Shown here: positions 11,140 through 39,659 of the stretch, one piece after another
Position numbering within the stretch: the first letter of the stretch is position 1
How the letters are laid out: each line of letters opens with the position of its first letter
Assembly (NCBI GenBank): GCA_030737835.1
Contig: CM060848.1
Coordinates: 6,742,568 to 6,806,567, forward strand
Source of the DNA: Acorus gramineus
Taxonomy: Eukaryota; Streptophyta; Magnoliopsida; Acorales; Acoraceae
Direction of reading: 5' to 3'
DNA: 64,000 nt
Notes under the pieces: generated by a model
Databases searched by the model: none
What the model was told of the DNA's origin: nothing
Seen by the model: only the letters and a program-made list of their open reading frames with translations
Translations under genes and position numbers: made by a program

Positions 11140-11394
11140 ATGGCGCGCAACAACAACAAGGTGAACAAGCAGATCAGGTTCCAGATCGAAAGGCGAAAAG
11201 AGCAGCTTAGAAGGCTTGAGAAGGAGATCCGCGAGATGGAGGCGAAGGTGGCGTTGAGTCGATACCTCCGCGGGGAGGGTTTGAAGGGCGCGGACTTGGG
11301 TGAAGTGGCTTCTCTTGTGGACAGGAAGTTAAGAGCTATCACAGAGCGCAAAGAATTTCTCAATGCATCATCACATGTGGTGCCGCCAAAATAA
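11140..11394 (+). CDS. Micro-MADS copy 1: M-gamma-derived small protein lacking the MADS domain
   Basis: 84 residues, one exon. It begins MARNNNK, the start of the full-length MADS protein, then joins directly to VNKQIRFQIERRKEQLRRL, which aligns with residues 85-106 of the full gene (LDQERFLSKGKERLEEQLKKL). The rest follows the parent: EKEIREMEAKVALSRYLRG against EKENREAEVKAALMRCLCG, then GEGLKGADLGEVASL against GEGVQSADLDEVGSL, then RKLRAITERKEFL. About 80 codons, nearly the whole DNA-binding domain, are missing with the frame kept. A charged coiled coil at residues 15-37 is the likely dimerisation surface. Start chosen by homology to the parent leader TTTTCTTTCATGGCGCGCAA. It could act as an interaction-only microProtein or be a silent relic; the function is inferred. 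Confidence 0.72.
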   Translation: MARNNNKVNKQIRFQIERRKEQLRRLEKEIREMEAKVALSRYLRGEGLKGADLGEVASLVDRKLRAITERKEFLNASSHVVPPK

Positions 11395-14300
11395 GCGTAT
11401 AGTCATAAATAACTCTTCCAAGAATAAGTACTCGTATATACTTAAATATAATATATATATATATATATATAAGCTGGCTATTATAAGAGTGTTTTGATGT
11501 ATTTTCTTTAAGTTTGTTTTTCTTACATCTCCAAGTCACAATACCCTATATAAATTAGTCAAGGGGTTGTGTACAAATCAATCAATAAAAGACAAGAAGT
11601 TTTATAAAATGTGTATGTGTTTTAAAAAATCTGTTTTTAGTTAATCTTTGCACTGATCTATGGTTAATAAAAAATCATTTAGGATTTCTTCCACTTTAAG
11701 GGATAGAATTTAAACTACAAACGACTTTTGCCCACAGTTATATGTATATATTTTAATAACAAAAAATCAATATTGCACAGTAACATAACATGTACATACG
11801 GGAGATATTGTCAACCCATCTATTCCATCTATACAGATAAAACAAATTTGATTATCAAATTGTAAGTTTGTACACATACAAATTAAGCATACACACATAA
11901 ACAATTTGTTGCAAATTTATTACAAATAAGTAAAATGATATCTCTAAAATAACTTACAAGTGTGGTCCTCAAACCTTAAGGACTCCAACCTAATCTAAAC
12001 ATTACATAAATCTTCAAAACAAGCTCATACACAAGGACCTATTACAACCTACACAAGTCTCTCTCATCCAATCATCTGACATTGAAATCTATTACAACTT
12101 ATGTCTAAGCATTTGTCTTCAAAGACATCAATCATTGCTTGCTCAGATCATATAGAAACAAGAAGAATGGTGATACTTAGACTTTGACTTCCAGCCATTA
12201 TCAGATGGTTCTTTTGGTTATCTTTAGTAGTATTGGATATTTGGATGTAAAGCATGTATACTCATCATTAGCATGCAATAAGCAAGCCATCAGTGCATCA
12301 AAAAGGAGAAATATATTTGAAACTGTAATCGGTAAAACATATATACTTTACTTTTTAAAGGTTGTTGCATGTTTTCTTTCCTCTGTTCACAACTTGGAAT
12401 TTCAGTTCACATGAGATGGTTTATAATTTTGTAAAATGACTAGTTATGCTAATATAAAAATAATAAAGAAAAAAACCTTGATATTCTAGTCATTGGGAGC
12501 TCGAATACGGCGTGGTTATTTCCTAATAGGGGACTGATAGTAATAGACATGCGAGACATTTGTTGAAAAAAATAACTTGCGAGTTTAATTTTATGCATTA
12601 AACCTTTTATTTCAATACAAAACTTGTTCAGTTCATTTCAATGCTATAAAAAATAAAGTTTATTTCGTTGTCATGTTGTCTAATTCAATGCATGAGTTAG
12701 TTAATTAATAGATTGTTTAATTTAATTTATGGTCGAGATTAAGATTAACAGATGTGTCACTTCAAGAGAAAAGGATTACCATAAAAAGGTTCTGAAGAAC
12801 TACCTCTATGAGGTATTGGATGCATTGACAGATTTAACATATACAATTGCAACAATTGGCATGAGACACTTATTTTTCTGGTTTTCATTATCACAAACCA
12901 CAAATATAATCAAACAACACACAATAAAAATCACACCCTAACCACAAAGAACAGTGTGATTGTCCTAACTCAATAGCCATTCCTGAGAACCAATTTTGCA
13001 CTGAAAAAAAAAAACCACATTATTCAAGAACATTTGATCCAAACATAAACACGCAACCTTAACCATAAAGAACAGAGTGATTGTCCTAACTCAATCTCCT
13101 TCTCCTCATGCGACTCCCATCGAAGGTCCATAGGAGAACTTCATATGGATTTCCATTTTTCAGTTTTCGAAGATAACCCACATCATAACAAGATTTGGGT
13201 TTTTCTTCAAAACCAAAACAAAAGAAAACCCTAAATAATTAAATAACAGAACAAATCGAAACCCTATACCTAAATGATTGGATACAAAGGCAACTTAAAG
13301 AAAATACTTACGTTGAATGTTTTACGGAGACGGTACCGATGAGGTGATGGTGCGAGGATGGGATGCCACATTTGATTGAAGAGGTGCCGGAGAAGGAGTG
13401 CCAGAGGGGGAGAGGGGGACACATGAGCAATGGCAGCTCCAAGAATTTTCATAGATGGGGTCATTAAAAAAAAAATTTCTCAAAAGTTTTAAAAAATCTA
13501 CTCTTATCATATATTGAAAATTTTTTCTTAGCCCTCGACCCGAAAGAATATTGTTCACATTAACAGAACTTTGCTTAACATCACAATTTTCTTCGGTAGG
13601 ATAAAAAAATTATTTTGTAGTTGATTTTCTTTTTAAAATTTTATCTATTGAATAAATGACACATTATGTAAAATAAATTTTTTATAACTATAAATACATA
13701 AAAAAATTAAGCAACCAATCAACTAAAGACCCACCCCACCTTCCTAAAACACACTCCAGAAGCCCCCTCCCCCTCCCCCAAGCATATATTAAATTATATT
13801 TGAATACACATATGGGTGAAGGGGCTTTTGATATGTGAATGAAAGAGGGGTGTAATGTTGAGGGATTTTGTTCATTATTCATACACGATTATGCAGTGAT
13901 GGAAGAGATTCAGATTAACATACAAATATGATTAAGGGAAAAAAAATTAAAACTAAATCTATGATTAGATATCTGAAACAGAGTAGGGAGAGGAGATCGG
14001 CAATGTGATGAGCGACTATCGATGCTCCGTTCGTCCGTCAATGTTCGGCGTGTCTGTCCATGAGTAGGTGATTGGCCAGTTTGCTAAGGGGTTCTTGTCC
14101 GGCTGTCCCCTAATTTTTTTTTAAGATAGGGTAGTGTTTTAGGGTTTTTGTTTTATTATTTTAGGGTCCCACTATGTGAGTGTAAGGTTTTTAATGGACA
14201 AAACTTTAAACTGGACTAAAATGTTATGGTTTTTAATGGGTCCCACCTAATATGGTGTCATTATTTTTGAGAGTGTTGTTTTACTTTTTTTTCTTTTTTT

Positions 14301-14888
14301 TTAATATGTTGTTTTGCTTCTTTTTTAAAAAATATTTGATGGGGTCAATTGACCCCATCCTTTGAAGGGTGGCGCCGCCTTTGCGCATGAGAAGAAGAGG
14401 TGGTGGAGGAGAGAAGGGAAAGTGAGAGGGTTTGGTTAGGGCAGAGAGACCCCTCAAAACGAGAGGGTTTTGTGGGTTTCATTTTCTTTTTCTTTTTCTT
14501 TTTAAACGGACCGTCCGATCGGTGGAAACTTGATCGGACGGCCCAACAATGAAACCACACAGAACAGTGTAATCCACATTATCGCATAGTATCGCGAGTC
14601 TATATATATATATATATATATTAATTTATTAAAATTTGAAAATATTAATATGATTTACTTTGAAATCTCAAAGTATATTTATGATTTATCTAAATCTGAT
14701 TTAAAATTTTAAATTTTGGATCAATAGATATTTGTAATTTCTAAATTTATGGGAGGGAAAAAATGGAAATGAAAGCTGGGCAGTTTTACTTAAATAAATA
14801 TAAGTTATATATATATATATGCATTTCAATTTTATATTCTAATTTTACCATCCTATAATTGATAATGAGTTCCAACTTTACATGTATA
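11395..14888. other. 3' flank of copy 1 followed by anonymous AT-rich DNA
   Basis: The first ~430 bp are the shared 3' flank, with an AT microsatellite (about 11448-11470) and the polyadenylation signal AATAAA at 11584-11589. A near-repeat AAGAACAG(T/A)GTGATTGTCC occurs near 12945 and 13070. 13290-13460 is GC-richer with no recognised protein. GGGGTCAATTGACCCC at 14342-14357 is a perfect palindrome. 14516-14540 holds CGTCCGATC and GATCGGACGG in inverted orientation. An AT tract lies at about 14602-14622. 14636-14880 is again shared with the MADS unit upstream flank. Confidence 0.45.
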
Positions 14889-14978
14889 GTGGCTTCTCTT
14901 GTGGACAAGAAGTTGAGAGCCATCGCAGAGCGCGAAGAATTTCTCAATCAACCGTCACATGTGGTGTCGCCAAAATAG
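14889..14978 (+). pseudogene. Micro-MADS 3' fragment joined to a MADS-unit upstream flank
   Basis: The last 29 codons of a micro-MADS frame (VASLVDKKLRAIAEREEFLN through SHVVSPK) and its TAG are preserved, followed by the usual 3' flank (CATATAGTCATAAA). Immediately 5' is sequence matching about 6740-6870, upstream of the full MADS gene. The 5' part of the gene, its promoter and about 53 codons are absent. This is a non-functional recombination product that joins two different parts of the array. Confidence 0.75.
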
Positions 14979-17541
14979 GCATATAGTCATAAAAAAACTC
15001 TTCGAAGAATAAGTACTCGTGTGTGTGTGTGTATATTATAAGAGTGTTTCGATGTATTTCCTTTATGTTTGTTTTTCTTAAATCTCTAAGTCACAATACC
15101 CTATATAAATTTGTGAAGGGTTGTGTGCAAATCAATCAATAAAAAACAAGAAGTTTTATAAAATGTGTATGTGTTTTAAAATATCTGCTTTCAGTTAATC
15201 TTTGCACTGATCTATGGTTAATAAAAAACCATTTAGGATATCTCCCACTTTAAGGAACAGAATCCAAACTACAAATGATTTTTGCCCACAATTATATATA
15301 TATTTTAATAACAAAAAATCAATATTGCACATTAACATAATATGTACATATGGGACATATTACAAGGTTTCACAATATCCCTCAAGCCTCTCAATATATC
15401 ACTATAGTTTACAACGGTCTCCTACATATATGTCTCGAACCATGCACGTAGCACATGGCTTCTATATTTTATTTTTATTATTATCTTTTTACTCCAAATA
15501 TAATCATAAAGGGATCGAGTTAACACAAACACCCAAACTAAACATGTAGCCCAATACATGAAAGCATACACAAATACACATATACATTAACTGGGCCTAT
15601 TATTTTAGTCTCATATCTGTTTTTTGGAAAAAGCTTTGAGGATTTATAAGGTGGACTCTTTGTATTCTAGTGAAATCCTTCTTGATGGACACATTATAGT
15701 GGATCTTTGATGCGGGGTGGTGCGTAGCATGGGCGCATCGTCACTAGGAGTTGGAGCCTTTTCTTTTTTGCTAATCGGATGTGGAGATTGTTTTGATCAG
15801 ATACAATCTGAACCGTTCAATGGATGATAACTCAGATGCAATGTGCATCGTTGGATTGATCAATTGGTGGTTACAAATATCAAAGGGTGTCATTGGAAGG
15901 GATGCATTGTGTGGTGGACGATCTGGACCACACGATTGTGTGAAAATGGTGGACCACTGATTGGACAGTTCGTGTAACTCCCCATTCATGAAAGGGTGTG
16001 TCTTTTCACCAAGAAACACTATTTTGCCTATAAAAGGGTCCTAGATCCAAAATTAATAGTACAACAACCACTCATCCTCTCATCTTTTCTATTACAAGTT
16101 AACATCATCAGCCCTTGAAACAAAGAGAGTTCTCAGATGTTGAAATAGAGAGTATACACTATGTTTTCAACACTATCATGAAGGATGCACTTCTTCATTC
16201 CCTCGTGCACTCGCGGTTCTTATCGGAACAGAAGAAGTCTGTCTAAAATCATTCAACTCCATTGATTCTTGAAGCACTGGCACTGATTTTGTCTTCTTCC
16301 GCTTCCCGATTTCTAAGAATAGTCAATTAAAAACCACACATAATCCATCGTGACATTCTAGTATTCATTTTCTTTTAATAAGATCAAAACAATAAAAATG
16401 ACCAGAATTGTTTTTTTCTTTTATTTATTCCCTTGCTTAAGAAAATCAAGGTTTATTTAAAAAATCGGAAAACTAATTTATCAACAAATGAAGTTGGACT
16501 TGGACATCTTACAAGCATATATTTTTTGCAGGTCTGCAACTAGAAATTCAAGCAAGCAATGGAGGGATCCGTTTGAATTGAACATGGAAAATAAGTGGAA
16601 CGCGCTTTGAAATACAGAGTTACCTTGCTTAATTATTAGGTTAATTGATCTATTGCATATTGAGCTACCTTATTTATGATCATTATTGAAGAATGATGAA
16701 ATTCATCATAGTTATGAATGATGGTAAGCTTTCCTTCTTTTTTTTCCTTTTTTTTTTATTGGTAAGCTTTCTTTAAGAATGATGGAAATTCATTATAGTT
16801 AAATTTGATTTTAGTTAAAAAATATTACAAAGACACACGTTTTTTCATTAAGAAATATTTTAATGGTGTAAATGAATTGTGATATTTGTGATGATATAAA
16901 AATAGAAAACATGCTTTTGGATGATATATGTGAAAAAAAGCTCAAATTCCATTATGGATTTTATCAATTTCCATTGTAATGAACTTACTGTCAAACACTG
17001 TAAGCGATCTCTAAAAATCTTGATTAGAGATCTCTAAAAATCTTGATTATATAATTCAAATATCCTAATCGCCCAAAACTACAATTTAATTAAATATTAC
17101 AAGCATGTAATCTTTTCATCCGTAGCATAAAAAAAAAACAAAAAACTCACATTTTTTCATAAAAAATATTCTAATGGTAGAAAATAAAATATGATTTCTG
17201 TGATGATATAAAAATAGAAAGCATGTTTTTAAATGAAATACATGCAAAAAATTGAAACTAAAATTGATATATGTGTAATTATCAATCTCAATTTTTTCTA
17301 GTTCCATTATAATTAATTTATTACGAAGTACTATAAGGAATCTCATAAAATCTTTTTTTCTGATTTGACAATGAATGACACAAAATCTATTGAGAATATA
17401 TGCAGTTGAATATATATTTTGCAATTAATGTATGTTGAATTAAATTGATCATTCACATGTCACAAGTCCCTGTATATTACGAACACAAGCAATCAAGAAA
17501 GAGCCTCAACAAGTCATTTGTTTCTCATTGGATTTTCTTTC
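14979..17541. other. 3' flank of the fragment, duplicated non-coding block and promoter flank
   Basis: Up to about 15550 this is the shared 3' flank. 15600-16320 is a block repeated near 43940-44165 and 34460-34920; it contains a TATAAAAGGGTCC box at 16029-16041, which is CACAAAAGGGTCC in the 34.6-kb copy, so it may once have been a promoter or LTR. 16330-16640 holds the unit marker AATTCAAGCAAGCAATGG. 16850-17540 is the shared promoter flank in two rounds. No gene is recognised in the block. Confidence 0.45.
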
Positions 17542-17736
17542 ATGGCGGCGCCCAACAAGGTGAACAAGGAGATCAAGTTCCAGATCAAAAGGCAAAAAGA
17601 GGAGCTTAGGAGGCTTGAGAAGGAGATCCGTGAGATGGAGGCGAAGGTGGCGTTTGAAGGGACTTGTGATCTTTTCATCCGCAGCATAAAAAAAACCAAC
17701 AAAAATCTCTCACAATCATCTATGAAAGATCCTTAA
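17542..17736 (+). pseudogene. Micro-MADS 5' fragment, truncated and running into the next copy's promoter
   Basis: It starts MAAPNKVNKEIKFQIK and follows the micro-MADS coil (EELRRLEKEIREMEAKVAF), then switches after about 39 codons to GGGACTTGTGATC and on to CTTTTCATCCGCAGCAT, a promoter block that normally lies several hundred bases upstream of a micro-MADS start. The frame ends 25 codons later with a novel tail. It arose by deletion between two tandem copies; the next copy starts 165 bp further on. The 64-codon frame retains the coiled coil but loses the C-terminal helix. Confidence 0.65.
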
Positions 17737-17900: not shown

Positions 17901-18149
17901 ATAGCACGCAACAAGGTTAATGAGAAGATCAGGTTCCAGATCGAAAGGCAAAAAGAGCAGCTTAGGAGGGTTAAGAACAAGTACCGTGAGGTGATGGCGA
18001 TGGCGGCGGTGATGCGATGCCTCTGCGGGGTGGGTTTGAAGGGCGCGGACTTGGATGAAGTGGCTTCTCTTGTGGAGACGAAGTTGAGAGCCGTCGTAGA
18101 GCGCGAAGAGTTTCTCAATGCATCGTCACATGTGGCACCGCCAAAATAG
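17901..18149 (+). pseudogene. Micro-MADS copy with ATG changed to ATA but frame still open
   Basis: The position matching the family start reads ATAGCACGCAACAAGG. The frame from there is open for the family-standard 82 codons: ARNKVNEKIRFQIERQ, a divergent coil (RRVKNKYREVMAMAAV), then MRCLCGVGLKGADLDEV and REEFLNASSHVAPPK. MRCLC and ADLDEV are closer to the full-length gene than to the other micro copies. In-frame ATGs exist upstream (17787, 17838), but 17838 lies at the TATA box; downstream in-frame ATGs begin within the coil. Probably no longer translated as a family member, although initiation elsewhere is possible. Confidence 0.6.
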
Positions 18150-19199: not shown

Positions 19200-19232
19200 A
19201 AAGTTAGGAAGAAAAACATGCATTGGGTGGTT

Positions 19233-20066: not shown

Positions 20067-23000
20067 CCCCCGCTCAAACTCAAGGTGGATCAAACAACGT
20101 GAGTTTGCGAATTAGAGATTGAAATCTAGGAACTAGATGAGACTTCGTGAAGAAGTCCGTGATCTGTTCAGCAGAGGAAATGTGCGGAAGCGTAAGTGTC
20201 TGAGCAAGGAAGTGCTGACGGATAAAATGACAGTCAATCTCAATATGTTTAGTCCTCTCATGAAAAACCAGATTACTGGCAATCTGAATAGCACTCCAAT
20301 TATCACAGTAAAGTGGAGTAGGACTTGTAACATCAACTCCAAGATCGACTAAGAGACGTCTGAGATGAACGATATCTTTAGTCGTGATGGCCATAGCTCG
20401 ATACTCGGCTTCTGTGCTGGAAAGAGAAACGACATCTTGTTTCTTGCTGCGCCAGGAAATAAGAAGAGAATCTCCAAGAAATATGCAAAAGCCAGTAGTG
20501 GATTGACGAGTAGTCGGATCTCCCGCCCAGTCAGCGTCAGAGTAAGCTCGAAGAACAAGAGATGAAGATGATGACAGATAGAGTGATGTAGTAATAGCCC
20601 CACGTAAATATCTGAGGATCCTCATGAGAGCACTATAGTGAACCGAACGAGGATCGGAGACGAACTGACTAACAATGATGACTGCATGACCAATATCAGG
20701 TCTGGTGATGCACAGATACACTAGCTGACCCACAATATACCTGTATTGTGTAGGATCTAGAAGAAGCTCTCCATCAGTAGGACGGAGCTTTACATTAAGC
20801 TCAAGGGGAGTGTCAACACTGCGAGTGTCAGATATAGCGGCACGATCAATAATATCTGCTGTGTACTTCTGTTGGGAGAGAAGAATCCCCCGCTTACTCT
20901 AAGCAATCTCTAGCCCTAAAAAGTAGCTAAGAGCACCGAGATCTTTCATCTGAAACTGACTACTGAGGTGACGCTGAACAAGAGTAATACCAGCTGAGTC
21001 GTCACCAGTGATGATCATATCATCCACATATAGAAGTAGAATCACACGACCCTGCGATGATGATCACACAAACAAAGAGTGATCCTGAGAGCTCTCAACG
21101 AAACCAACTGATAGAATAACACTGTGAAAACGCTCAAACCATGCACGAGAAACCTGCTTGAGGCCATATATAGCACACCGGAGACGACAGACATGTTGTG
21201 GGGGAGTACGAAGACCAGGAGGTGGTTGCATGTAGACCACCTCTGATAAGTCCTCGTGAAGAAAGGCATTCTTCACATCCATCTGAAAGAGCAGCCAATG
21301 ACGAGTCACAGCAACGACAAGAAGTGTGCGAACAGTGGTCATCTGTGCAATAGGGGCAAAAGTCTCCACATAATCGATCCCATACTCCTGTGTGAAATCG
21401 CAAGCAACTAGACGAGCCTTGTGTCATTCAATGGATACATCAGGTCGATGTTTGACCTTAAGTATGGAACTATCAAGTGTCATGTGATGGGATGCACCAG
21501 AAAAAAAAATCCAAGAAACTGAATTACCCAGAGTAGAAGAGAAGGCTAAGGGAGCAGTAGACTCAGACTAAGGTGGATGCTGTAAGAGTTGCGCAAGACG
21601 CTGATTGATTAGGGTGTCAATATGATCAGAGGTAGGCAAGCCTGGTGTAGTGGTGGTAGCAACAGCAGCAGTAGTAGGACGACAATGAACCAGACCATGA
21701 CCACGACCATTAGAAGCTTGCAGTGGCATACGAGAAACCGGACGTTTCTCTGGATGAAGATCCCAGCAATAATTAATGTTATGTCCTGGCTTTTTATAGT
21801 GAGCACAAAGAATTGTAGAACGTGATGAAGGTGCAGAAGCAACGTAGGAGATGTAGTAACTAGAACTCCATAACACCTGGTCGAGGAAGTAGTCTGTCGA
21901 GATGCCACAGTGCGAAGATGAGTCTCCTCGACAACAATCTCAGCTAGAGCAACCTCTAAGCGTGGTAAAGGATCCCGATGTATCAACTGTCCAGCCAAAG
22001 CGGAAAATTCAAGACGAAGAGCCATAAGGAACTGGTACAGCTCACGACGTTCACGAAAGACAGCTCACTCAGCTGCAGATGCATGTGGACCGGGCTCAAG
22101 ATTACGTAGCTCACGAAAACAGGTGCGCATGTGATTGTATAGGTCTGTGATAGACAGATCTCCCTGAACAATTGTTTGAGCCTCAGCAAGTAACTGGTAC
22201 TCTCGAGCGCCGCTTTTCTCCACAAAGCGTTCAAGAAGAGATGCCCAAAGCTCTGCTGCTGTATCAAAGACACTGAGATCAGCCCGAAGAGAGCGATCAA
22301 CGGAGTTAATCACATATGAAGAGGTACGTTGATCACGCCTGCGCCACAATGCATACGTTGGAGCGCTAGGCAATGGAGCAACAGAAGTACCATCAAGGTG
22401 ACTGAATAAATCACGTGGACTGAGGGTGCTCTTTACAGTGGTGCGCCAGGACGACCAATCATCCACATAGCTCAGAAGAAAGTCAGTCGAGTTCCGAAGA
22501 ACATCACAAAATGACTCAATTGAGTCCACAGGAACAGTTTGTTGAAGATCAGTGGTGACTGTCATCAAAGGTTCCGTATTAGTAGGATTATCAGGCAAAG
22601 TCATGATCAAGATTTCTCAAATGAAGCCGAAATATATACGAATGCGTGGATGATGAAAAACTGAATAAAATGAGTACCTAGATGACTAGAATCGGAGTCT
22701 GAACGGAGCCGTAACAGTCCAGGAAAGAAACGCAACAAAACTTTGCCGGCGACAGATAGACGGCGGACGGACGGCTGTCGGCGGCAAACGGACGGCTGCC
22801 GGACAGTAACTGGACGGTATCGGACGGCTGCCGGACAGTGGCCGACGGCAATCGAACGGCAACTGACGGTGACCGTCGAAGATAATCGGAGCCGGGTAGT
22901 CGGATCCGAGTACGGGCTGGCGGGCCGGGCTGGTGGATCCGGGTTGGTAGGTCGGGACTGGCGGGCTGGGCATCGGACGTGAGATCCGCGAACACGCGAA

Positions 23001-24818: not shown

Positions 24819-27800
24819 TGGTATCAGAACTTAAATTTAATTTTTTTTTCTTTGATTTTTTGTTGACTTTATTCTCCGTTCACGAAATCGACGTTCCGCT
24901 GTCCATCGCCCCATTCGTGTCACCGCTACGCCGCCGCACCCAGTTCTGCTGCCCCCACGCAGCCCCGTGCTGCCCCGCACAGATCCGTTGTCCCTGTCGC
25001 AGTCCTGTGCAGCCCCGCCGCTGCCCCGCACAGATCTGCTACCTTTGTCACAGCCCCACCGCTGCCCCGCTCAGATCCGCCCTTGTCGCAGCCCTGCCGC
25101 TGCCCAGTGCCGCCTGAGCCACCCCGCCACCGCTGCGTGTGCCGGCCCAGTCACGCCCTGCCCTACCGCACCGCGCGCCCTATCCTGCCGCGCCCACGAT
25201 TGTGCCCAACCGCGCCCAGTCGCGCCCTGCCCTGCTGTGTCGCCCTGCCGCCCACGATCACGCCCAATCGCAAACAGTCGCGCCCTGCCTTTCGTGCCGA
25301 GTCGTGCCCTGCCGCGTCGGCAAATTTTTCCCCTCGCGTGACCACGATCGTGTTCAGATTTCCCGGGATATGCTGCGTCCGCAAAATCCGCCTGGACAGC
25401 TAGCACCAGCGCGATCGAGCTCGTCCTGCCTTGCGCCCGATCCGGATCCTGCCCGCGCCCGACCCAGTTCGCCGGATCCCGTGCGTGCCCGGCCCAGTTC
25501 GCCCGGATCCCATGCGCGCCCTACCCAGATCCCGCTCGCACGTACCCGGTTCAGCACGCCCAGTCTAGTGCCCGACCCAGCATCCGGCACCCGTGCGATC
25601 CGTGCACTCGGCTCCTACGCCGTCACTGCCGGCCACCGCCGCCGGAGGCAACATCCAAAAGTTGCCAGGAACCGCTGGATGCCGCCTCAGGCCACCGCTC
25701 CAGCCACCCTGTCGGCAATTTTTTGGTAGTTTTCTCTCTTTGCCCACTATGGGCTCATTTAGACTCCGAATATAGTCATTTTGGTACTCATTTTTATCAT
25801 CTTTTCGTGCTCTACACATCTGTGATTGTTTTGGATCTATCAAATACTGTTTGTTTTGATCTGTTGCTATGCAAGTGCTATGGATTGCAGATATTGTCAT
25901 TCCTTTGGTCATGTTACCCTCGAATGCCGCAAGTTGGCTAGAAAACGTGCTCGAGATGTCGTTCTCTCATCATCAATTCATTCGTCTGCTCAATCACCTC
26001 GTCATTAGGATCAGATTTGTGCATCAGTTGCATCTAGTATTACTTCCGCTCCACCACAGTTTACTACACCTCAACTTATTGCACATTTAAAGGGGTTACA
26101 TGACCAATACCAGCAGCTTTATGACATGTTGCGTTCATTGATTGATACAGATCTTTCTGCCTCCGTTCAGTCTGCTTCTACTCCTATACCAGGCATACCG
26201 ATAACCTCATGGGTTCTTGATTCCGGGGATTCCCATCATATGACATAGGATGCATCGATCCTTGTAAATTGTACACCACCACATTCTCCTTCACTTATTT
26301 GCACCACTTATGGTTCTCCTATGTCTGTCTCAAGCTCTGGCATTCTTTCTTATCATTCTCATCAATTCAATGTGCCTAATGTTTTACATGTTCCTAAACT
26401 TTCCATGAGTTTGTTTTCTGTCAGTCAGCTTGTTTACCTTGGTTATACGATCACATTTGATTCATCATCTTGTTCTATTCAGGATCGATTTACTGGGAGA
26501 CGAATTGGGACTGGACGATGACAAGGTGGACTCTATTACATGGATCAGCTTCATGTTCATCAACCTTCCGCTGCCTCTGTGCGGTTAGATACAAATTCCC
26601 CTTCCCTTTCCCCTTTCGATCTTTGGCATCGTCGTCTTGGTCATTTGTCTTAGCCTAGACTCCGATATCTTGCTAGCACCGGTGCATTAGGATCATTTTC
26701 TCGCACGGATCTTCAACCATGCGTGGGTTGTAAATTGGGTAAGCCCGTGGCTCTCCCTTTCCCTTCCAGTTAGCATATTTCTGATTCTCCCTTTAATTTA
26801 GTCCATTATGATATTTGGGGTCCATCTCCTGTTTTTTCAAAAGGGGGAAATCGATATTATGTTATTTTTGTCGATGACTATTCTCACTTCACTTGGCTTT
26901 ATCTTCTATCTAGTCGTTCAGATTTATTGCGTATTTATACTTCTTTTGCTACCATGGTTGAGACTCAATTTTCTCGTCGTATTAAGGTGCTACACTCTGA
27001 TTGTGGTGGTGAATATTGTTCTAAGGTTTTTCGTGAGTTTTTGTCATCCCAAGGTACTCTTCCTCAGTTTTCCACTCCTTATGCTCATCAACAAAATGGA
27101 GTTGCTGAGCGTAAACACCGTCACATTCTTGAGATGACTCGATCTTTACTTCTTTCTGCATCCGTCCCTGTTGAGTTTTGGGGTGAGGCTGTTCTCACAA
27201 GTGTGTATCTCATTAATCGCACTCCGTCACCTGTTACTGGTGGTATCTCGCCATCTGAGCGGATTCACAATCAGCCTCCTGATTATTCTCGTCTTCGTGT
27301 TTTTGGTTGCACACGTTTCGTTCTTCTTCCTCCCACTGAACGCACCAAGCTTTCTCCTCGTTTTGCTATGTGTGTTTTTCTTAGATACAGTATTTAACAT
27401 AAGGGTTACAAGTGTTATGATCCTATTGTACGACGTCTTCGTATTTCTTGTCATGTCACCTTTCGGGAGCATCATCCTTATTATACTCTTCGCTCACCTC
27501 CGGCTCCACTTCCTCCGTCTACCATTGATGACTTTATTTTTCTGGATTTTTCGACTCCTGAGTCCTCTCCATCATCTGTCTCACCGGCTTCTAGTCCATC
27601 TATCCCATTTATGACCTTGCCATCTCCTATATCTCCTCCTCCGGATGATTCATGTGAGCCGAGTCCCCTTGTTGTTGCTCATGTGCCTGATGTTGTTCGA
27701 CCAACAGTCGACCCCGCACCAGCAGTGGACCCCGCACCAGCTCCTCCTCGCATTCCACCTCATGATCGTTTCCCCCTCATAGGCTAAGTCTAATTGCGTC

Positions 27801-29375
27801 TGACTCATTTTCTCCCCATTTTCAGAGCTTTCTTGCAACCATTTCATCTCATTGGGAGCCCTAGTCATATCGTGAGGCAGTTGGTATTCCTGAATGGGAG
27901 AATGCTATGGCAGAGGAACTTGGTGCGTTACAACACAGTCATACTTGGGATCTTGTCCCTCTTCCTACGGGTAAGGTTCCCATTGGCTGTATGTGGGTCT
28001 ACAAGATCAAGACTCACTCCGATGGTTTGATTGAGCGTCACAAGGCTCGGTTGGTTGCCCGTGGATTCACTCAGCAGCATGGTATTGATTATGATGAGAC
28101 ATTTGCTCCTGTAGCGAAGATGACGACTGTTCGCACTTTGATTTATGTTGCTTCTGTTCGTCAGTGGCCCATTTATCAGCTTGATGTCAAGAACGCCTTT
28201 CTTCATGGTGATTTATCAAAGGAAGTTTACATGACTCCTCCCCCAGGCTTTCCTCATCCATTTGGTCACGTATGTCATCTTTGTCGTGCTCTCTATGGTC
28301 TCAAGCGGGCTCCTCGAGCTTGGTTTGCTCGATTCACTGATGCTATTTGTGCTGCTGGGTTTGTTCCGAGTTCTTCTGATCCAGCTTTATTTGTTCACAC
28401 ATCCGGTCCTCGTCGTACTATTCTGCTGCTTTATGTCGATGACATGATCATTACCGGCGATGATTCTTCTCATATACAGTCGATCAAGCAACATCTTCAA
28501 CATCAATTTGAGATGAAAGATCTTGGCAAGCTTTGATATTTTCTACGCTTTGAAATTGCGTCTGCTCCGCGTGGTTATCCTTTCTCCAACGCAACTATGC
28601 CGCTGACTTGATCGACCATGCATGTCTGACTGATGATCGCATTTCTCCTACTCCTATTGAGCTTCATGCTAAGCTTTGGCCTGACGATGGAGAACATCTT
28701 TCTGATGTTACTCGTTATAGACAGCTTGTTGGGAGCCTCGTATATCTCACTGTCACTCGTCCTGTGCATATTGTCAGTCAGTTCGTCGTTGCCCCTTGTA
28801 CTGTTCATTATGCAGTAGTTCTTTGGATTATACGCTATCTACGTGGCACCATATCTCGTGCTCTGTTGTTACCGTCTTCTTCTACTCTTGAACTTCACAC
28901 TTATACTGATGTTGATTGGGCAGGAGATGTCACAAATCGAAAATCCACGACTAGTATCTGTGTGTTTCTTGGTGACTCTCTTATATCTTGGAAGGCCAAG
29001 AAACAGGACATTGTTTCTCGTTCGAGTGCTGAGGCTGAATATCGTGCTGTGGCGTCTGCTACTGCTGAGTTTGTTTGGCTTTGGCGCCTCCTCTCTGACA
29101 TGGGTGTCATTCGATCTGCGTCTACTCCTCTATATTATGACAACAAGAGCGCCATTCAGATTACTGGCAATCCAGTTTTTCATGAACGTACGAAGCACAT
29201 TGAGATCGATTGTCACTTCCTCCGTCATCATTTTGTTGCAGGCACTATATCACTCCCATATATTCCTTCGTCTCTTCAGTTATCTGACTTTGTCACAAAT
29301 TCACATACACTTCAGCGGTATGGTTTCTTACTGAGCAAACTCTTGGTGTATGATCCACCATGAGTTTGAGGGGGG

Positions 29376-29830: not shown

Positions 29831-31542
29831 AAATAGAGAATCCATAATTTCAAGGTGTATTTACATAACAGATCATCCAAATAAAATCTCCTATGACAAT
29901 CCAATCTCCCTTTAGTAACTAATAGTAGTCAGAGCAACACATACATATATGTACCAAGTTGAACCTATATGAAGATTATCAGTGATATAACCTCTATTGG
30001 GTATTGTTTACACAGATTTTGTTTCCTCAATGTAAGCCTGAACATTCTAAGGAAGTTTAATGGTTTCGGATAGTAGTCCTGATTCGATACCCAAACCAAA
30101 AACTGAATGCCTTTCTATCTCGGAATGACAAATCTAATGATAATTGTCTGACCACTCTATTTTTTTGTAGTCCATTATAAAACGTGCATTCAGCTCTTTA
30201 TTGGAAGGTAACTTAATTAGCGAGTGATGGTCCAACATTTAGAAACACAGTGAAGCTATATGAATTAATATATGTATGACAAATGAGACAAATAAACTAA
30301 GAAAGGGGGCTGAAGGACATAAAATGCAATCATTTGGAGTATTTATGAGGTCCATTAAAAATAATTAATGATTCTGCGTATCAAAAGAAGTTGTTAACAG
30401 TTTCTATACATAACCACAATGCCCAATGCCATTGCATTGCCAGCCGCCCAAATACATTTTATACAATTAAAAATCATAAGTGGAACTAACAGTTATCAAC
30501 ATAAGTAACTTAAATACTTTTCAAGATATAAGAACTTACACAATTTTTTTCTTCTGGTTAGTGATGAAATAAGGAATCTGTATCCTCTGTCAACTCCATA
30601 ACTTTTTTTGTTTGGAGGGTAAATAAATTGTATTGCTATAGACAAAATTCGTATCCCATGACCATACAGAAAAACTTTGTAGGTAATTAATTGATCTATT
30701 ACATATTGAGCTACGTTATTTATGATCATTACTGAAAAATGATTTAGATCCACCATAGTTGATGAAAGAGAAAAACACAAATCTTAAATTTGAAAAAAAA
30801 AAAGGGAAGGGGGTAGTTTGAAAGGAGGCAAAAGAAAGAATGGCTCACGAGTGATATGAAAAGACTAAAAGATTAATTAGGTTATTATGTTTAATTATAT
30901 TTACATTATAAAAATATTACGTTAAAATTAATTTAGGTTATTTTTACTTATTGATTAAAAACTAACTTTAGTTAAAATTGATTTTGATTAAAAAAAATAT
31001 GACAAAGGGACATATTTTTTTATTAAGAAATATTTAGTGGTATAAAATTAAATGTGATATTTATCATGATATAAAAATAGAAAGCATGTTTTCGGAAGTT
31101 ATACATGCAAAAAAAAACTAAAATTAAAATTTATATACTACGAAATCATCAATATCAATTTTCATATTTCCATTATATTTTAATTAACTTATTACCAAAT
31201 ACAGTAAGGGATCTCTAAAAATCCTCATCAGATATATTCAAAGATCCTGATCACCCGAACCAGAGTTTAATTATTACAAGCATGTAATCTTTTCATCCGT
31301 AGCATAAAAAAAAAAACCAACAAAAATCTCTCACAATCATCAATGAAAGATCCTTAAATAATTGACCCAAAATTAATTGAGAGTGAAATTGTTAAAATTT
31401 TCAATTAAGGCATTCAAGGAAGTCATTAGGCCCCTCTATGTTTTGAACACATGCAATAAAATCAACTCTGAATATACAATTAAATATATTTTGTAATTAA
31501 TGCACATTGAATTGAATTGATCATTCACAAGTCACAAGCCCC
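29831..31542. other. Degraded retroelement-like DNA, then the shared promoter flank of micro-MADS copy 2
   Basis: 29830-30150 may continue the old copia relic. From about 31020 (TTATTAAGAAATATTTAGTGG) the sequence is the upstream flank shared with 10550-11060 and 35530-36010, including CATCCGTAGCATAAAAAAAA. No other gene is seen. Confidence 0.45.
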
Positions 31543-31612: not shown

Positions 31613-31861
31613 ATGGCGCGCAACAAGGTGAACGAGAAGATCAGGTTCCAGATCGAAGGACAAAAAGAGCAACTTAGGAAGCTTGAGAAGAAGATCCGCA
31701 AGATGGAGGCAAAGGTGGCATTGAGTCGGTACCTCCGCGGGGAGGGTTTGAAGGGTGCGGACTTGGGTGAAGTGGCATCTCTCGTGGACAGGAAGTTGAG
31801 AGCCATCGCAGAGCGCAAAAAATTTCTCAATGCATCGTCGCATGTGGTGCCGTCAAAATAG
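31613..31861 (+). CDS. Micro-MADS copy 2: M-gamma-derived small protein lacking the MADS domain
   Basis: 82 residues: MARNKVNEKIRFQIEGQ, coil EQLRKLEKKIRKMEAK, then LSRYLRGEGLKGADLGEV, RKLRAIAERKKFL and a SHVVPSK end. It keeps exactly the first five residues of the parent MADS protein (MARNK) before the jump to the coil. A one-base difference in the leader disrupts the upstream in-frame extension seen in other copies, which supports the MARNK methionine as the family start. The 3' flank with its own ATATATA tract follows. A 1-kb inverted-repeat element lies about 640 bp downstream of the stop. The function as a dimerisation-only protein is inferred. Confidence 0.7.
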   Translation: MARNKVNEKIRFQIEGQKEQLRKLEKKIRKMEAKVALSRYLRGEGLKGADLGEVASLVDRKLRAIAERKKFLNASSHVVPSK

Positions 31862-32209: not shown

Positions 32210-32262
<53 letters not shown>

Positions 32263-33550: not shown

Positions 33551-36014
33551 TTTTATTTTTTTTTACTCTAAATATAATCATAGAGGGATGTAGTTAACAT
33601 AAACACCCAAACCAAGCATGTAGCCCAATACACGAAAGCATACACAAATACACATATATCTCTATATCCCTCTCTGTGTATCCACAAACCAGTAAAATCA
33701 AATGCAAAACTGATTACATCACAAAAGAGAACTCAATATAAACGCCATTAAACAGTCAATCTATCCCCAAACAGAGTCCGGACTTTCATTGATGACCGAA
33801 GCCAAATCGTATGCATGGTGAGTTGCCTTGATTAATCAGACAGTTGGTTTCGGGTGATTAGGAAGGGATTTAATCTCTCTACAAGAGTTTTTTTTTACAT
33901 CTCTTATTAGCTTAACAGTACACTAGGCTCCTTTTTTTATTCAACATAATCATGCCACTTGACAACTGAACTGGTCGCAAGAAAATATGCTAAATATTTA
34001 ATAAAAATTACCCGTTTATCACCATTCTACATTAATCAAGCAATATTTTTTTTGCCATACCGTGATATTTGTATATTTCTATTACCTGAACCATCACAAT
34101 TTCAAGTATTTTAGATTTTATTAATTTACTGCAACATAGCATCATTAACATAAAAAATTTAGATTCACAAACAAAATATTTAAAATCAAAATATATGTGA
34201 AAAATAAATAACATATAAAAATGATGTGATTTTTTTATATTGGAAAACAACGAAGAAAGAAAATTGAGAACTTTGTGAAGATTTAGGATTTATCATTACA
34301 TGGAAATGGCATACATTGCTTTCTGTCTTATCCCAGGGTTACATAAATTATTCTCAGTTAACCACCTTTTTCTGAGGCATCCAAACGCGTTCGACATTAC
34401 TTATTCAAAAAAGTAGCATATAATTGATTTTTTACACCTAAACAAATGCAATGTCCATCGATGAATGATCAAAGGGTGCCATTGGAAGGGGTGCATTGTG
34501 TGGTAGACGATCTGGACCACACAATCATGTGAAAATGGTGGTCCACCAATCGGACAGTTACTGTTACTCCCCATTCATGAAAGGGTGTGTCTTTTGCACC
34601 AGAAGGCAATATTTTGCCCACAAAAGGGTCCTAGATTCAAAATTGATAGCACAATATCAACTCATTCTCTTATCTTTTCTATTACAAGTTAGCATCATCA
34701 GTTCTTGAAACAAAGAAAGTTCTAAGAGGTTGAAACAGAGAGTACACACTCTGTTTTCAACACCAGTGAAGGCTTTATTGTATCCTGAAGGCTGTATTTC
34801 CTCATTCCCTTGTGTACTCGCGGTTCTTATCAGAACAGAAAAAGTCTGTCTAAAAGCATTCAACTCCGTTGATTCTTGAAACAATTGTACTGGTTCTATC
34901 TTCTTCCGTTGTCCCGATTTCTAGCAATAGTCAACTAAAAACCACATATAATTCATCTTGATATTCTAGCATTAATTTTCTTTTAATAAGTTCAAAACAA
35001 TAAAAAAGACCAGAGTTGTTTTTTTCTTTTATTTATTCCCTTGCTTAAAAAAATCAAGGTTTATTTAAAAAATCTAAACACTAATTCATCAACAAATGAA
35101 GTTGGACTTGGACATCTTACAAGAATATATTTTTTGCAGGACAGGAACTAGAAATTCAAGCAAGCAATGGATGATCCGTTAGAACATGGAATATAAGAGG
35201 AAAACGCTTTGAAATATAGAGTTGATCTCTGCATATTGAGCTACCTTATTTATGATCATTATTGAAGAATGATGAAATCTATCATAGTTGATTGACAGAA
35301 AAACCCTAATTTTTTTTTAAAAGGAGGCATGAAAAGAAGGTGAGAGGGAGAACGGTTCATGATTGATATAAAAAGAGGAAGAGATTAATGTGATTATTAT
35401 GTTTAATTATGATAACATCATAAAAATATTATGTTAAAAATATTTTTGTCATTTTTACTTATTGGTTAGAAACTAACTCTAGATAATTTGATTTTAGTTA
35501 AAGAATATGATAAAGAGACATATTTTTTCATTAAGAAATATTCTAATGGTATAAAATGAATTTTGCTATTTGTGATGATATAAAAATAGAAACATGTTTT
35601 TGGTATATATGCCAAAAAACCAAAATTCCATTATAAATTTTCTAAATTTCCATTGTAATGAACTTACTGTCAAATATTGTAAGGGATCTCTAAGAATCTT
35701 GATTAGATAATTCAAGATCCTAATGCCCAAAACCACAGTTTAATTAAATATTACAAGCATGTAATCTTTTCATCCGTAGCATAATAAAAACCAACAAAAA
35801 TCTCTCACGATCATCTATGAAAGATCCTAAATTAACTGACCCTAAATTAATGGAGAGAATTTGTTAAATTTTACAATTTAGGCATTCAACGAAGTCATTA
35901 AGCCCCTGTATATTTTGAACACATGCAATAAAATTAATTGAGAACTATACTATTGAATATATATTGCAATTAATGCACATTAAATTGAATTGATCCTTCA
36001 CAAGTCACAAGACC
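33551..36014. other. 3' flank of copy 2, duplicated block, promoter flank of copy 3
   Basis: 33560-34440 is the shared distal 3' flank (CAAGCATGTAGCCCAATACACG; GAGAACTTTGTGAAGATTTAGG, repeated near 41415, 43445 and 61200). 34460-34920 repeats 15880-16320. 35145-35215 has the unit marker AATTCAAGCAAGCAATGGATG. 35530-36014 is the promoter flank. No independent gene is seen. Confidence 0.5.
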
Positions 36015-36030
36015 CTATATATATATATTA
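36015..36030 (+). promoter_or_regulatory. TATA box of micro-MADS copy 3
   Basis: CCCTATATATATATATTATG, slightly expanded by AT repeats compared with sister copies, ending about 63 bp before the ATG at 36093. Confidence 0.5.
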
Positions 36031-36092
36031 TGAACACAAGCAAACAACGAAGTGCCTCAACAAGTCATTTGTTTTTCATTGGATTTTCTTTC

Positions 36093-36341
36093 ATGGCGCA
36101 TAACAAGGTGAACGAGGAGATCAGGTTCCAGGTCGAAAGGCAAAAAGAGCAGCTTAGGAGGCTTGAGAAGGAGATCCGTGAGATGGAGGCGAAGGCGGCA
36201 TTGATGCGGTACCTCCGCGGGGAAGGTTTGAAGGGCGCGGACTTGGGTGAAGTGGCTTCTCTTGTGGATCAGAAGTTGAGAGCCATCGCAGAGCGCAAAG
36301 AGTTTCTCAATGCCTCGTCGCATGTGGCGCCGCCAAAATAG
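36093..36341 (+). CDS. Micro-MADS copy 3: M-gamma-derived small protein lacking the MADS domain
   Basis: 82 residues: MAHNKVNEEIRFQVERQ, then EQLRRLEKEIREMEAKAA, LMRYLRGEGLKGADLGEV, DQKLRAIAERKEFL and a SHVAPPK end. LMRYL is intermediate between the parent LMRCL and the LSRYL of copies 1, 2 and 4. Start by homology; the upstream in-frame ATG at 36030 overlaps the TATA region and is unlikely to be in the transcript. The ORF is intact and the 3' flank conserved, with AATAAA near 36529. Interaction-only role inferred from architecture. Confidence 0.7.
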   Translation: MAHNKVNEEIRFQVERQKEQLRRLEKEIREMEAKAALMRYLRGEGLKGADLGEVASLVDQKLRAIAERKEFLNASSHVAPPK

Positions 36342-38195
36342 GTATATAGTCATTAATAACTCTATGTTGGTTAAGAATAAGTACTAGTATATATGTAAAT
36401 ATAATATAAGATATATTAAGAGTGTCTCGATGTATTTTCTTTATGTTTTTCTTTTCTTATTCTTCAAGTCACAATACCCTATATAAATTTGTGAAGGGGA
36501 CGTTGTGTATATATCAATCAATAAATTTCTATTTCAAATCGGTATTCTTAAACCTCAACTTTTGGTATGAGATTTTGGTTTTATATCTTTACAGTTAATT
36601 TTTACACTGATCCATGGTTAATTAAAAACCATTTAGGATGTTTCTCACTTTAAGGGACATAATCCAAACTACAAACGACTTTTACCCAAAGTTTTATATA
36701 TAATATAATAACTAAATAAATATTGCAATTTAACATAACATATGGAGATATTATGACTATATGACTATAATTAATATTGCACATTTTATTTCTATTTTTG
36801 AGTAAAATGCGTTTAGACCCCTAAAGTCTTTAAAACCTGTAGAAACATCCCCCAGGGTTCTAAAACATGCATTTACATTCCACGCTATTAGATTTCTCGT
36901 TAAGATGAAACAAAAGTACGATTTTATCATTTTAATTAAAGATTTATCATGTTTTTGCATTTTCATTAACTGTTGTGTGACTTAATTCTTACAAAAAAAA
37001 ATTGTATCCACGTGCATTTGAAAAGTTGATTCATTTATATTTTTACTCTAAATAATAGATGATGGATCTAGTTAACACAAACACCAGAGTTCTCCTAACA
37101 TATACATCCCAAACCAAGCATGTAGCCCAGTACACGAAGGCATACACAAATATACATATATCTCTATATCTCTCTGTGTGCGCAAACCAGTAAAATCAAA
37201 TGCAAATAAAATGGAACTGATTACATCACAAAAGGGAATTCAATATATGAACATCCTAACAAAAATCAATCATCATATACGCCAAATACTACTCGAACCC
37301 CATTAAACAGTCAATCTATACCCAAACAGAGTCCAGACTTTCATTAAAGACTGAAGTCAATTCGTATATAGGGCTTGTGACTTGTGATGGAAGTTTTCAT
37401 TTTCTTGCGTGCCATGAAATAAAATGATGTAGGACAGATTATGTAAATGGGACTCCAAAAGAGGTCTATCAAATAAATTACAAATCAATTGTCACGATCT
37501 CAGAATTGCACGAAATTTTACATGGTGAAATATATTGAGAAGATCTTCTGGATTAGTTGTTTTACAACTAAGAATTCTTATTTTTCAAAAATTCATTTAT
37601 TTAGGTCTTTAAATTAGATTTTACGATTTTTAGTAAGTTAGATTTGTGATATCTCAATCATAACAGATCGGAATTGCATTCTATAAATTCATATGATCAT
37701 TTAGGATCTCATAGAATCATAAAAATTAGTTTTTGAATTTTACTATTTTTAGTAATTTTTTAAGTTTATGTTATTAGTATAAATAGCTGACTTATAATCA
37801 AGGGTTTTCAGTTTTTTATCAATAATATTTCGAATTTCCTCTCTTTTGGGGTTTTCTTCCTTGTGGATTCAAGGAGCTTATGAGATCTCAATGCTGGTTG
37901 GATCTTTTTATCAGTTTTTTTAGTAAGAAATATTTAGTAAATGTGATATTTGTCATGATATAAAAATACAAAGCATGTTTTTAGAAGTTATACATGCAAA
38001 AAAACTAAAAATAAAATTTATATATTGCTAAATCATTAATATCAATTTTCTCATTTCCGTTATATTGTAATTAATTTATTACCAAATACAGTAAGGGATC
38101 TCTAAAAATCTTCATTAGATTCAAAGATCCTAATCGCCCAAACTAGAGTTTAATTATTACAAGCATGTAATCTTTTCATCCGGCGCATAAAAAAA
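36342..38195. other. 3' flank of copy 3, a small inverted MADS-start scrap, promoter flank of copy 4
   Basis: The shared 3' flank runs to about 37370, with an unshared block at about 36790-37040. At about 37375-37425 the minus strand reads TTTCATGGCACGCAAGAAAA, a MADS-type leader and start in inverted orientation, then CATCACAAGTCACAAGCCC, a piece of the promoter. 37430-37915 is anonymous. 37920-38195 is the promoter flank, interrupted by the inverted-repeat element at 38196. Confidence 0.45.
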
Positions 38196-39096
38196 GGGGA
38201 AAAATCCATATAACCCCATGTAATCTGGCCTAAATCCATATAACCCCTTGCAATTTTCATAAATCCATATAACCCCCTGTAATCACCCCTCTATATCCAT
38301 AAAGCCCCCTCCGTCTGCCTTCCGTCCGTCTTGTTAACGGGGCAGGGGGTTATATGGATTTATGACAGATTTACAAGGGGTTATATGGATTTTTCTCTTT
38401 TTTTTTATTTTCTTTACATGTGGTTTAAAAATCAAGCTGTTTAACATTTGCTTTTGAATTTTTTTCAAGATACCATTGACATTTAATTTTAATAAAAAAA
38501 AAGGGTTATTTAAATCATAAACACATTCAAGATCACTCACCAAAGAGATAGAAGTAAAAGAGAATGAATTTTGTAATAAAAAGTGTGTAACATCAACCAA
38601 CAAAATTTCAAAACTGCGAATTATATTTTTTATTAAATCTTGGGGCACCTCTTGTTTTGGTGTCATGAGCAAATTTTGTTAGGGATAAACTGTACGTGGA
38701 GGAGTAGTTTTGGGTTCTTTTTTTGAAATACAAAGAGATAAAGTATATATCTCTTTGGTGTGTGATCTTGTATGTGTTTATTATTTGAATAACTCTTTTT
38801 CTTTTATTAAAATCAAAATTGCATGGTATCTTAAAAAATAAATTCAGAAGTAATTGTTAAACAGCTCAATTTTTAAACCACATGTAAAGAAGAAAAAAAA
38901 AGGGAGAAAGATCCATATAACCTCCTGTAATCTGTCATAAATCCATATAACCCCCTGCCTCATTAACCAGACGGACGGAAGGCAGACGGAGGGTTTTATG
39001 GATGTAAAGGGATTACAGGGGGTTATATGGATTTATGAAAATTACAGGGATTATATAGATTTAGGCCAAATTACTAGGTGTTATATGGATTTTTTC
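38196..39096. mobile_element. Long inverted-repeat (hairpin) DNA element, copy B, inserted in the copy 4 promoter flank
   Basis: Ends GGGGAAAAATCCATATAACC and GTTATATGGATTTTTTC. The two arms, about 38196-38600 and 38690-39096, are inverted copies almost to the centre: CTTTACATGTGGTTTAAAAA on the left faces TTTTTAAACCACATGTAAAG on the right. A transcript across it would form a hairpin with arms of about 400 bp. It sits in an A-run between the CGGCGCATAA block and the CAACAAAAATCTCTCAC block; these are adjacent in sister units (10820-10860, 31300-31335), so the empty site is known. No transposase. Confidence 0.7.
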
Positions 39097-39341
39097 AAAA
39101 AAAAAAAAAAAACAACAAAAATCTCTCACAATCATCAATGAAAGATCCTTAATTAATTGACCCAAAAATATTTGAGAGTGAAATTGTTAAATTTAGCAAT
39201 TAAGGCATTCAAGGAAGTCATTAAGCCCCTATGTATTTTGAACACACGGAATAAAATCAATTCAGAATATATACAATTAAATATATTTTGCAATTAATGC
39301 ACATTGAATTGAATTGATCCTTCACAACTCACAAGCCCCCA
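39097..39341 (+). promoter_or_regulatory. Remaining proximal promoter of micro-MADS copy 4
   Basis: Shared sequence from CAACAAAAATCTCTCACAAT to the TATA region; about 315 bp separate the inserted hairpin element from the ATG. Confidence 0.45.
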
Positions 39342-39348
39342 TATATTA
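39342..39348 (+). promoter_or_regulatory. TATA box of micro-MADS copy 4
   Basis: CCCCCATATATTATGAACAC; one base differs from the sister CCCCTATATATTATG, shortening the box. Confidence 0.45.
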
Positions 39349-39410
39349 TGAACACAAGCATTCAACGGAGAGCCTCAACAAGTCATTTGTTTTTCATTGG
39401 GTTTTCTTTC

Positions 39411-39659
39411 ATGGCGTGCAACAAGGTGAATGAGGAGATCAAGTGCCAGATCAAAAGGCAAAAAGAGCAGCTTAGGAGGCTTGAGAAGGAGATCCACGTG
39501 ATGGAGGCGAAGGTGGCGTTGAGTCGGTACCTCCGCGGGGAGGGTTTGAAGGGCACGGACTTGGGTGAAGTGGCTTCTCTTGTGGACATGAAGTTGATAG
39601 CCATCGCAGAGCGCGAAAAATTTCTCAATGCATCGTCGCACGTGGTGCCACCAAAATAG
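39411..39659 (+). CDS. Micro-MADS copy 4: M-gamma-derived small protein lacking the MADS domain
   Basis: 82 residues: MACNKVNEEIKCQIKRQ, coil EQLRRLEKEIHVMEAKVA, LSRYLRGEGLKGTDLGEV, MKLIAIAEREKFL and a SHVVPPK end. It has more private amino-acid changes (CQIKR, HVM, GTD, LIA) than copies 1-3, so it may be under weaker constraint. The ORF is intact and start and stop are conserved. The distal promoter is cut off by a 0.9-kb hairpin element and the TATA box is altered, so expression may differ from the sisters. An AT microsatellite (about 39715-39741) lies in the 3' UTR, with AATAAA near 39854. Confidence 0.65.
   Translation: MACNKVNEEIKCQIKRQKEQLRRLEKEIHVMEAKVALSRYLRGEGLKGTDLGEVASLVDMKLIAIAEREKFLNASSHVVPPK

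Follow-up and report, generated by a model that had tools for sequence, protein, structure and literature searches.

We examined a 64,000-nucleotide stretch of the Acorus gramineus genome (contig CM060848.1, here C2, positions 6742568-6806567; called the window below), in which several short genes of 82 to 84 codons lie beside a full-length type I M-gamma MADS-box gene. The genome in which the stretch was placed comprises 398.6 Mb in 137 contigs. Judged from their sequences, the short genes form a real amplified family that kept the leader, the first codons and the C-terminal region of M-gamma genes and lost the MADS domain. The signs of coding constraint on this family are weak but repeated, and leftover debris of gene turnover is about as likely an explanation for it as function. 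The short open reading frames (ORFs) are supported, but not proven, to be coding genes under weak purifying selection. We tentatively favor, at somewhat less than even odds, a functional family that arose by one in-frame loss, was amplified within the cluster and encodes weakly constrained putative proteins that would titrate the partners of the C-terminal half of M-gamma proteins.

Short MADS-less genes of the window

The ORF listing contained the four short ORFs reported by the first-pass annotation at 11140, 31613, 36093 and 39411, three of them listed from upstream in-frame ATGs, and the three damaged relatives that it had described were also present. The full gene and the short copies of the window, where omega is the ratio of nonsynonymous to synonymous divergence (dN/dS), are the following:

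7370..7885, + strand: full-length M-gamma MADS-box gene, 171 amino acids, local full-type relative (ORF; Pfam SRF-TF, E 4.7e-10)
11140..11394, + strand: short MADS-less gene, 84 codons with two extra Asn codons, intact (ORF, homology to the 7370 protein)
14889..14978, + strand: damaged short copy, 3' part only (sequence comparison)
17542..17655, + strand: damaged short copy, 5' part with the join, truncated after ~38 codons (sequence comparison)
17901..18149, + strand: damaged short copy, ATG changed to ATA, 82-codon frame otherwise open (homology to the 7370 protein)
31613..31861, + strand: short MADS-less gene, 82 codons, intact (ORF, homology; no Pfam MADS match)
36093..36341, + strand: short MADS-less gene, 82 codons, intact (ORF, homology to the 7370 protein)
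39411..39659, + strand: short MADS-less gene, 82 codons, open, with near-neutral substitutions (branch omega ~1 or above)

Five short copies matched the C-terminal half of the 7370 protein, with E values of 2.0e-12 to 9.5e-20. The SRF-TF (MADS) match of the full protein was absent from that of 31613, which was the sole short protein scanned. The leader and TATA region of five short copies matched those of 7370 at 73-76% and the 3' blocks at 71-74%, in agreement with the common leader, TATA position and 3' flank claimed for them.

The same in-frame join was found in all 18 join-bearing loci of C2, as had been proposed from the copies of the window. The start had been given as MARNK; a start of the MA(R/H/C)NK type is indeed kept, but not MARNK uniformly, since MARNN, MAHNK and MACNK also occur and 11140 adds two Asn codons. 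After this start the short genes go on with VN(E)E, most likely the counterpart of the LDQE motif of M-gamma proteins (the full genes are assigned to M-gamma by their motifs), and codons 6 to ~83 are therefore missing. A derivation of VNE from KVDEL of the MADS domain was considered and rejected, the LDQE alignment giving the better fit; the domain is nearly all lost either way. At the C-terminus, about eight residues of the full protein have no counterpart in the short ones, and a gap of two or three codons lies slightly past the join. The short proteins are basic, with masses of 9.3-9.5 kDa (four computed), and, judged from sequence, probably helical. In the putative helix they have hydrophobic residues at two positions. 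Position 31 is M or V in 13/13 short sequences and A in 15/15 full-type sequences, while position 28 is I or Y in the short genes and N in the local full genes, other M-gamma genes being mixed. A profile search of solved structures gave nothing meaningful (best E 0.2).

Distribution and origin of the family

The 18 join-bearing short loci of C2 are spread over 0.84 Mb (5.995 to 6.836 Mb) among full M-gamma genes, and a further copy lies on contig C121; the local amplification deduced from the window was borne out, and the family extends beyond the window. A protein search of the genome gave 57 matches, namely 18 near-full short copies (17 on C2 and one on C121), two window fragments and 37 others. 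Thirty-three of these 37 had a Pfam MADS match within ~400 bases on their 5' side (compared by eye), and the remaining four were two insert-split window copies and their two C121 counterparts. A DNA search across the join recovered these 17 C2 copies and the C121 copy together with the 5' fragment; besides the family, it gave just four weak matches, each covering part of the leader or start. Both searches score best candidates only, so that the family counts are lower bounds. The C121 copy differed from b6836 at 1/249 coding bases, 17/885 upstream and 9/1187 downstream bases (gaps aside), and C121 looks like an alternative haplotype. An ATG, an open frame of 82-84 codons and a normal C-terminus were present in 12 of the 18 C2 loci, which we call intact. 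Full and short genes are interleaved in the cluster, and in four places a full gene (near 6054, 6185, 6226 and 6750 kb) precedes a short gene of the same strand by 2.9-3.5 kb.

The tree was built on the shared C-terminal region of 13 short copies (the 12 intact ones and 17901), eight local full genes and seven other M-gamma genes; a6217, a6014, b6738, a6442, both fragments and the C121 copy were left out. The outgroups were seven of the ten other-M-gamma stretches L028-L037, L030 (ORF cut at 123 amino acids), L029 (close to L028) and L037 (no full ORF) being unused. The 13 short copies formed one clade with 100% ultrafast bootstrap support and a long stem, and for this reason a deletion that happened once and was followed by local amplification, as the first-pass annotation had it, is well supported; the join common to the 18 loci agrees with it. 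The short genes grouped with M-gamma genes in this tree and are of the M-gamma lineage by descent. The group of short genes, local full genes and a gene at 5.65 Mb received 94% support and its inner order 39%; the deletion may have come before or after the rise of the local full clade.

Synonymous divergence (dS) among the 12 intact copies had a median of 0.23 and a maximum of 0.34. Plant genes accumulate substitutions at ~7e-9 per site per year; at this rate the divergence suggests an age of some 15-20 million years for the short family, and relatives should therefore carry the join.

The copy at 17901-18149 and the intact C2:6836003 (L019) form a divergent subclade with a changed helix, KYREV, which suggests a second subtype. 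At C2:6014681-6014926 (L018), an inner patch has a match later in the same gene (by eye), which suggests gene conversion or slippage.

Signs of coding constraint on the short ORFs

Neutral evolution (omega = 1) was rejected in three tree-based tests, which use overlapping data. Omega was 0.41 for the four window ORFs (twice the log-likelihood difference, 2dlnL, 8.57 against omega = 1), 0.54 for the 12 intact copies (2dlnL 8.96 against 1, p ~0.003) and again 0.54 for the short genes in a larger tree with the full genes and without 17901 (2dlnL 7.5). This last value was not significantly different from the 0.34 of the same region of the full genes (2dlnL 1.2); the part of the full genes that holds the MADS and I regions (M+I) had an omega of 0.22. 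For the four window ORFs, counting changes by class gave P 0.029. The ORFs are rich in GC while their surroundings are AT-rich, so that decay of CpG sites could raise dS. The proportion of neutral simulations that reached the observed ratio of nonsynonymous to synonymous differences (pN/pS) was 0% without CpG excess and 0.5, 2.5 and 3.0% with a CpG factor of 4, of 10 and of 4 with a higher kappa, respectively (200 runs each).

The evidence at the level of the frame is stronger than that of the substitution tests. No nonsense change was found among 169 inferred substitutions (codons 2-82, 17 copies), while 4.1 were expected (P 0.014). Indels per substitution came to 0.022 in the ORF, 0.138 in the leader and 0.217 in the 3' flank of the 17 copies and were thus 6-10 times rarer in the ORF than in the flanks, these ratios being pairwise sums that are not independent, with flanks of a different composition.

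Two comparisons were discarded. A branch contrast restricted to the window, with an omega of ~1.1 for 17901 and 0.37 for the rest, failed as proof of selection once the intact sister b6836 was added, since the changes lie mostly on the shared branch and the tip of 17901 itself has an omega of 0.28. A flank comparison over 826 gap-free columns was dropped, non-homologous inserts being mixed in, and the short adjacent flanks were used instead.

Promoter region and upstream element

The retention of promoter sequence, another claim made from the window, held for the leader and the TATA region and extended to a 64-bp upstream element that the short genes have in common with the full genes. Its copies in the window are the following:

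7144..7207, + strand: 64-bp upstream element of full gene 7370 (alignment, genome search)
10727..10786, + strand: upstream element of short gene 11140 (alignment, genome search)
17015..17078, + strand: upstream element ahead of damaged copies 17542/17901 (genome search)
31196..31259, + strand: upstream element of short gene 31613 (alignment, genome search)
35671..35732, + strand: upstream element of short gene 36093 (alignment, genome search)
38083..38142, + strand: upstream element ~1.3 kb ahead of 39411 (genome search)
53277..53339, + strand: upstream element ahead of split full copy 53623 (genome search)

The block was found within 520 bases upstream of 8/8 intact local full genes and within 620 bases upstream of 12/16 short copies examined, the C121 copy included. 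Among the other four, 17901 had a partial match, and a6221, a6050 and 39411 carried the block ~1.2-1.3 kb upstream. Two further short copies were looked at: b6738 had a 53-base match, and the block was not found in the upstream stretch fetched for a6442. Genome-wide, the block gave 29 matches at E 0.01 or better, 27 on C2 and two on C121, all on the strand of the genes, and at this threshold none outside the cluster or its C121 counterpart. The short-type element was 12-23% different from the copies of the eight intact full genes; dS in the K region between 7370 and the intact short genes of the window was 0.37-0.68. Around the block much of the sequence is unalignable, save smaller blocks and the leader. 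Common descent alone explains the presence of the block, which is probably a conserved cis-element.

In 11140, two similar TATA-like stretches lie ~110 bases apart, at about -187 and -77 from the ATG; they read CCCCTGTATATTTTGAACAC and CCCCTATATATTATGAACAC in the leader consensus of the short genes, whose core promoter seems to be duplicated. A 39-base match to the short-gene leader was also found on another chromosome, at C3:5304838-5304876, ~10 kb or less from MADS matches.

Sequence common to both gene types could also act as RNA, the transcripts of the short genes feeding small RNAs or serving as decoys, and so silencing the full M-gamma genes. All 18 short copies tested (leaders, C121 included) share exact stretches of 19-29 bases with a full locus. 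Seven of the 12 intact copies share 21-29 bases, six of them across the leader and start and b6836 at the TATA region, and the longest stretch is that of 11140 with 7370 (29 bases); in the other five the stretch is 19-20 bases long and lies at the TATA region, and 17901, whose start is lost, has 24 coding bases in common with two full genes. However, within the full coding sequences no intact copy has more than 15 identical bases in common with them, the matches at the TATA region fall at the likely transcript start or upstream of it, and constraint specific to the frame is not explained by an RNA function alone. We consider a role of this kind very unlikely.

What the short proteins could do

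In Arabidopsis, the M+I segments of PHE1 (residues 1-95) and AGL80 (1-88) pair with the M-alpha protein AGL61, and M alone does not (PMC8346517); the helix-strand-helix unit of MADS proteins is described as serving both dimerisation and DNA binding (PMC13293092). The first-pass annotation had assumed that the short proteins kept the dimerisation region. This premise was not supported, since codons 6 to ~83, by position nearly all of the M+I pairing segment described in PMC8346517, are lost. For the same reason the short proteins are unlikely to block the normal dimer interface. The classical microProtein model, in which the short protein would pair with M-alpha or M-gamma proteins through that interface and so prevent DNA binding, is accordingly very unlikely, although the short proteins are small and come from a transcription factor that lost a domain, features described for trans-microProteins (PMC7534434, PMC6003976).

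Compared with the definition of trans-microProteins, the short genes encode putative small proteins of their own (ORFs of 82-84 amino acids with their own leader and TATA-like region, for a size limit of 150 amino acids or less in PMC7534434), and C-terminal homology and the lack of a Pfam MADS match in 31613 point to derivation by loss of the DNA-binding domain. The pairing module of the parent is, by position, nearly all lost, and under this definition the short genes do not qualify as microProteins. The SRF-TF domain that marks an M-gamma MADS-box protein is likewise lacking in 31613. The C-terminal half may still offer a different surface for interaction.

The segment from codon 6 to ~83, by position the M+I module, was lost in frame, and the shortened gene was multiplied with its leader and an upstream element in the 0.84-Mb cluster beside full M-gamma genes. 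Under the functional reading, the short genes would be transcribed in the same reproductive cells as these genes, and the basic 9.3-9.5 kDa protein would compete with the C-terminal half of M-gamma proteins, titrating whatever this half binds, be it co-factors or coiled-coil contacts. The MADS dimer interface would not be occupied by a short protein that is itself without it. If the proteins are made, competition for C-terminal-half partners is the most likely mechanism. That MADS-less proteins sharing the promoter element and the gametophyte or endosperm cells with the full genes set the dose of M-gamma activity, in competition for C-terminal partners, is a more specific proposal, and we rate it as rather unlikely.

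Function or debris

The functional reading has to be weighed against birth-and-death debris, that is, a truncated M-gamma pseudogene with an open remnant, carried along by repeated tandem and segmental duplication of a cluster in which full genes also lie. The frames would then persist because the copies are young, homogenised by gene conversion, or constrained only before the truncation. M-type genes are described as undergoing rapid birth-and-death, some being thought pseudogenes (PMC13293092), and the alignment, read by eye, shows patches of sequence common to several copies, which fits this explanation as well.

Several results weigh against function; the broken loci, the tips of the 12-copy tree and the count by CpG class also favor debris. 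Four of the 18 loci are broken or truncated (an early frameshift in b6738 and a6442, the start lost in 17901, and 17542 reduced to a 5' fragment), and in two more, a6217 and a6014, a common indel alters the last residues, the frame staying open for 85 codons. On the tips of the 12-copy tree omega was 0.71 and omega = 1 was not rejected (2dlnL 1.96); in another tree, tips and internal branches did not differ in omega. A count by CpG class on the 17 near-full copies gave 108 nonsynonymous changes for 118.3 expected, a small deficit. 39411 showed an excess of nonsynonymous changes. Substitution divergence was 0.11 in the ORF, between 0.08 in the leader and 0.16 in the 3' flank, and dN was close to flank divergence. 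AT-rich flanks may inflate the indel contrast, and gene conversion between copies may have disturbed the trees. On the side of the protein, heptad periodicity was not significant in the short proteins (P 0.08 and 0.10), the K-box is described as lost from M-type genes (PMC13293092), and by position very little of the M+I module is left.

The first-pass annotation had named dN/dS near 1 with flank-like divergence as the mark of decaying fragments. The omega values of 0.41-0.54 and the depletion of indels do not bear this mark, whereas the substitution divergence is flank-like and some tests are near neutral. By the usual signs of a pseudogene the picture is similarly divided, with 12/18 frames intact and an omega below 1 overall that is near neutral in some branches and counts; purifying selection is possibly weaker in the youngest copies. 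Debris does not easily account for a median dS of 0.23 and a long stem without any nonsense change and with few indels, nor for the rejection of omega = 1 in the three overlapping tests. We judge debris to be a strong contender, falling a little short of an even chance.

Other elements of the cluster

Broken retrotransposon ORFs, of copia type by their motifs, lie among the short genes at 20080-22604 (- strand) and 26954-29363 (+ strand). Two full-type M-gamma copies, at 53623-54729 and 54968-56038, carry an insert at the same codon. The insert is ~550-590 bp long, with TG...CA ends and an imperfect 5-bp duplication, and was read by eye as a solo long terminal repeat. Each split copy leaves a 153-codon ORF (54268 and 55577) that starts inside the insert and is without the first half of the MADS domain; two ORFs of 153 amino acids are also present on C121 (L038). 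More M-gamma fragments were found at 56277-56464 (+ strand) and 56820-57051 (- strand), one frameshifted and the minus-strand one with stops.

Relation to known systems

The first-pass annotation knew of no described family of this kind, and a MADS-less type I family was likewise not found in the open-access literature; the excerpts of PMC4427850 and PMC9197559 make no mention of one. Two surveys of MADS genes have removed proteins without a MADS domain (PMC5598432) or re-annotated such candidates (PMC8829350), and families of this type could therefore easily be missed.

The short genes resemble the clusters of type I M-gamma genes (PHERES1, AGL80 group) in that they have the leader, the first five codons, the C-terminal region and the neighbourhood in common with the local M-gamma genes, and type I genes are described as duplicating often (PMC13293092); unlike these, they are without the MADS and I regions and so do not encode MADS-domain proteins. 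With the trans-microProteins or siPEPs (RADIALIS, miP1a/b) they share small size, a gene of their own and an origin in which a larger protein was duplicated and then lost a domain (PMC6003976, PMC7534434), but those proteins keep an interaction domain, whereas the short family lost its pairing module by position. The ZmTMM1-type genes of grasses are also a truncated MADS-box lineage retained in evolution; ZmTMM1, however, is a MIKC gene that keeps MADS, is without K and C, and is expressed and active (PMC7382388). A cleavage fragment of SRF offers the case of a part of a MADS protein that interferes with its parent in a microProtein-like, dominant-negative manner, but there the inhibitory piece is N-terminal, binds DNA and is made by proteolysis (PMC6003976).

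If the short genes are a co-regulated family, selection would act on the C-terminal half of M-type proteins, which is poorly understood, in its own right; under the proposal on M-gamma dose, a dosage brake would have been built beside the very M-gamma genes that it restrains. M-type (M-gamma) MADS genes have a part in hybrid seed failure. By their sequence, the short genes derive from a regulator of seed development, and most copies may give rise to small regulatory proteins.

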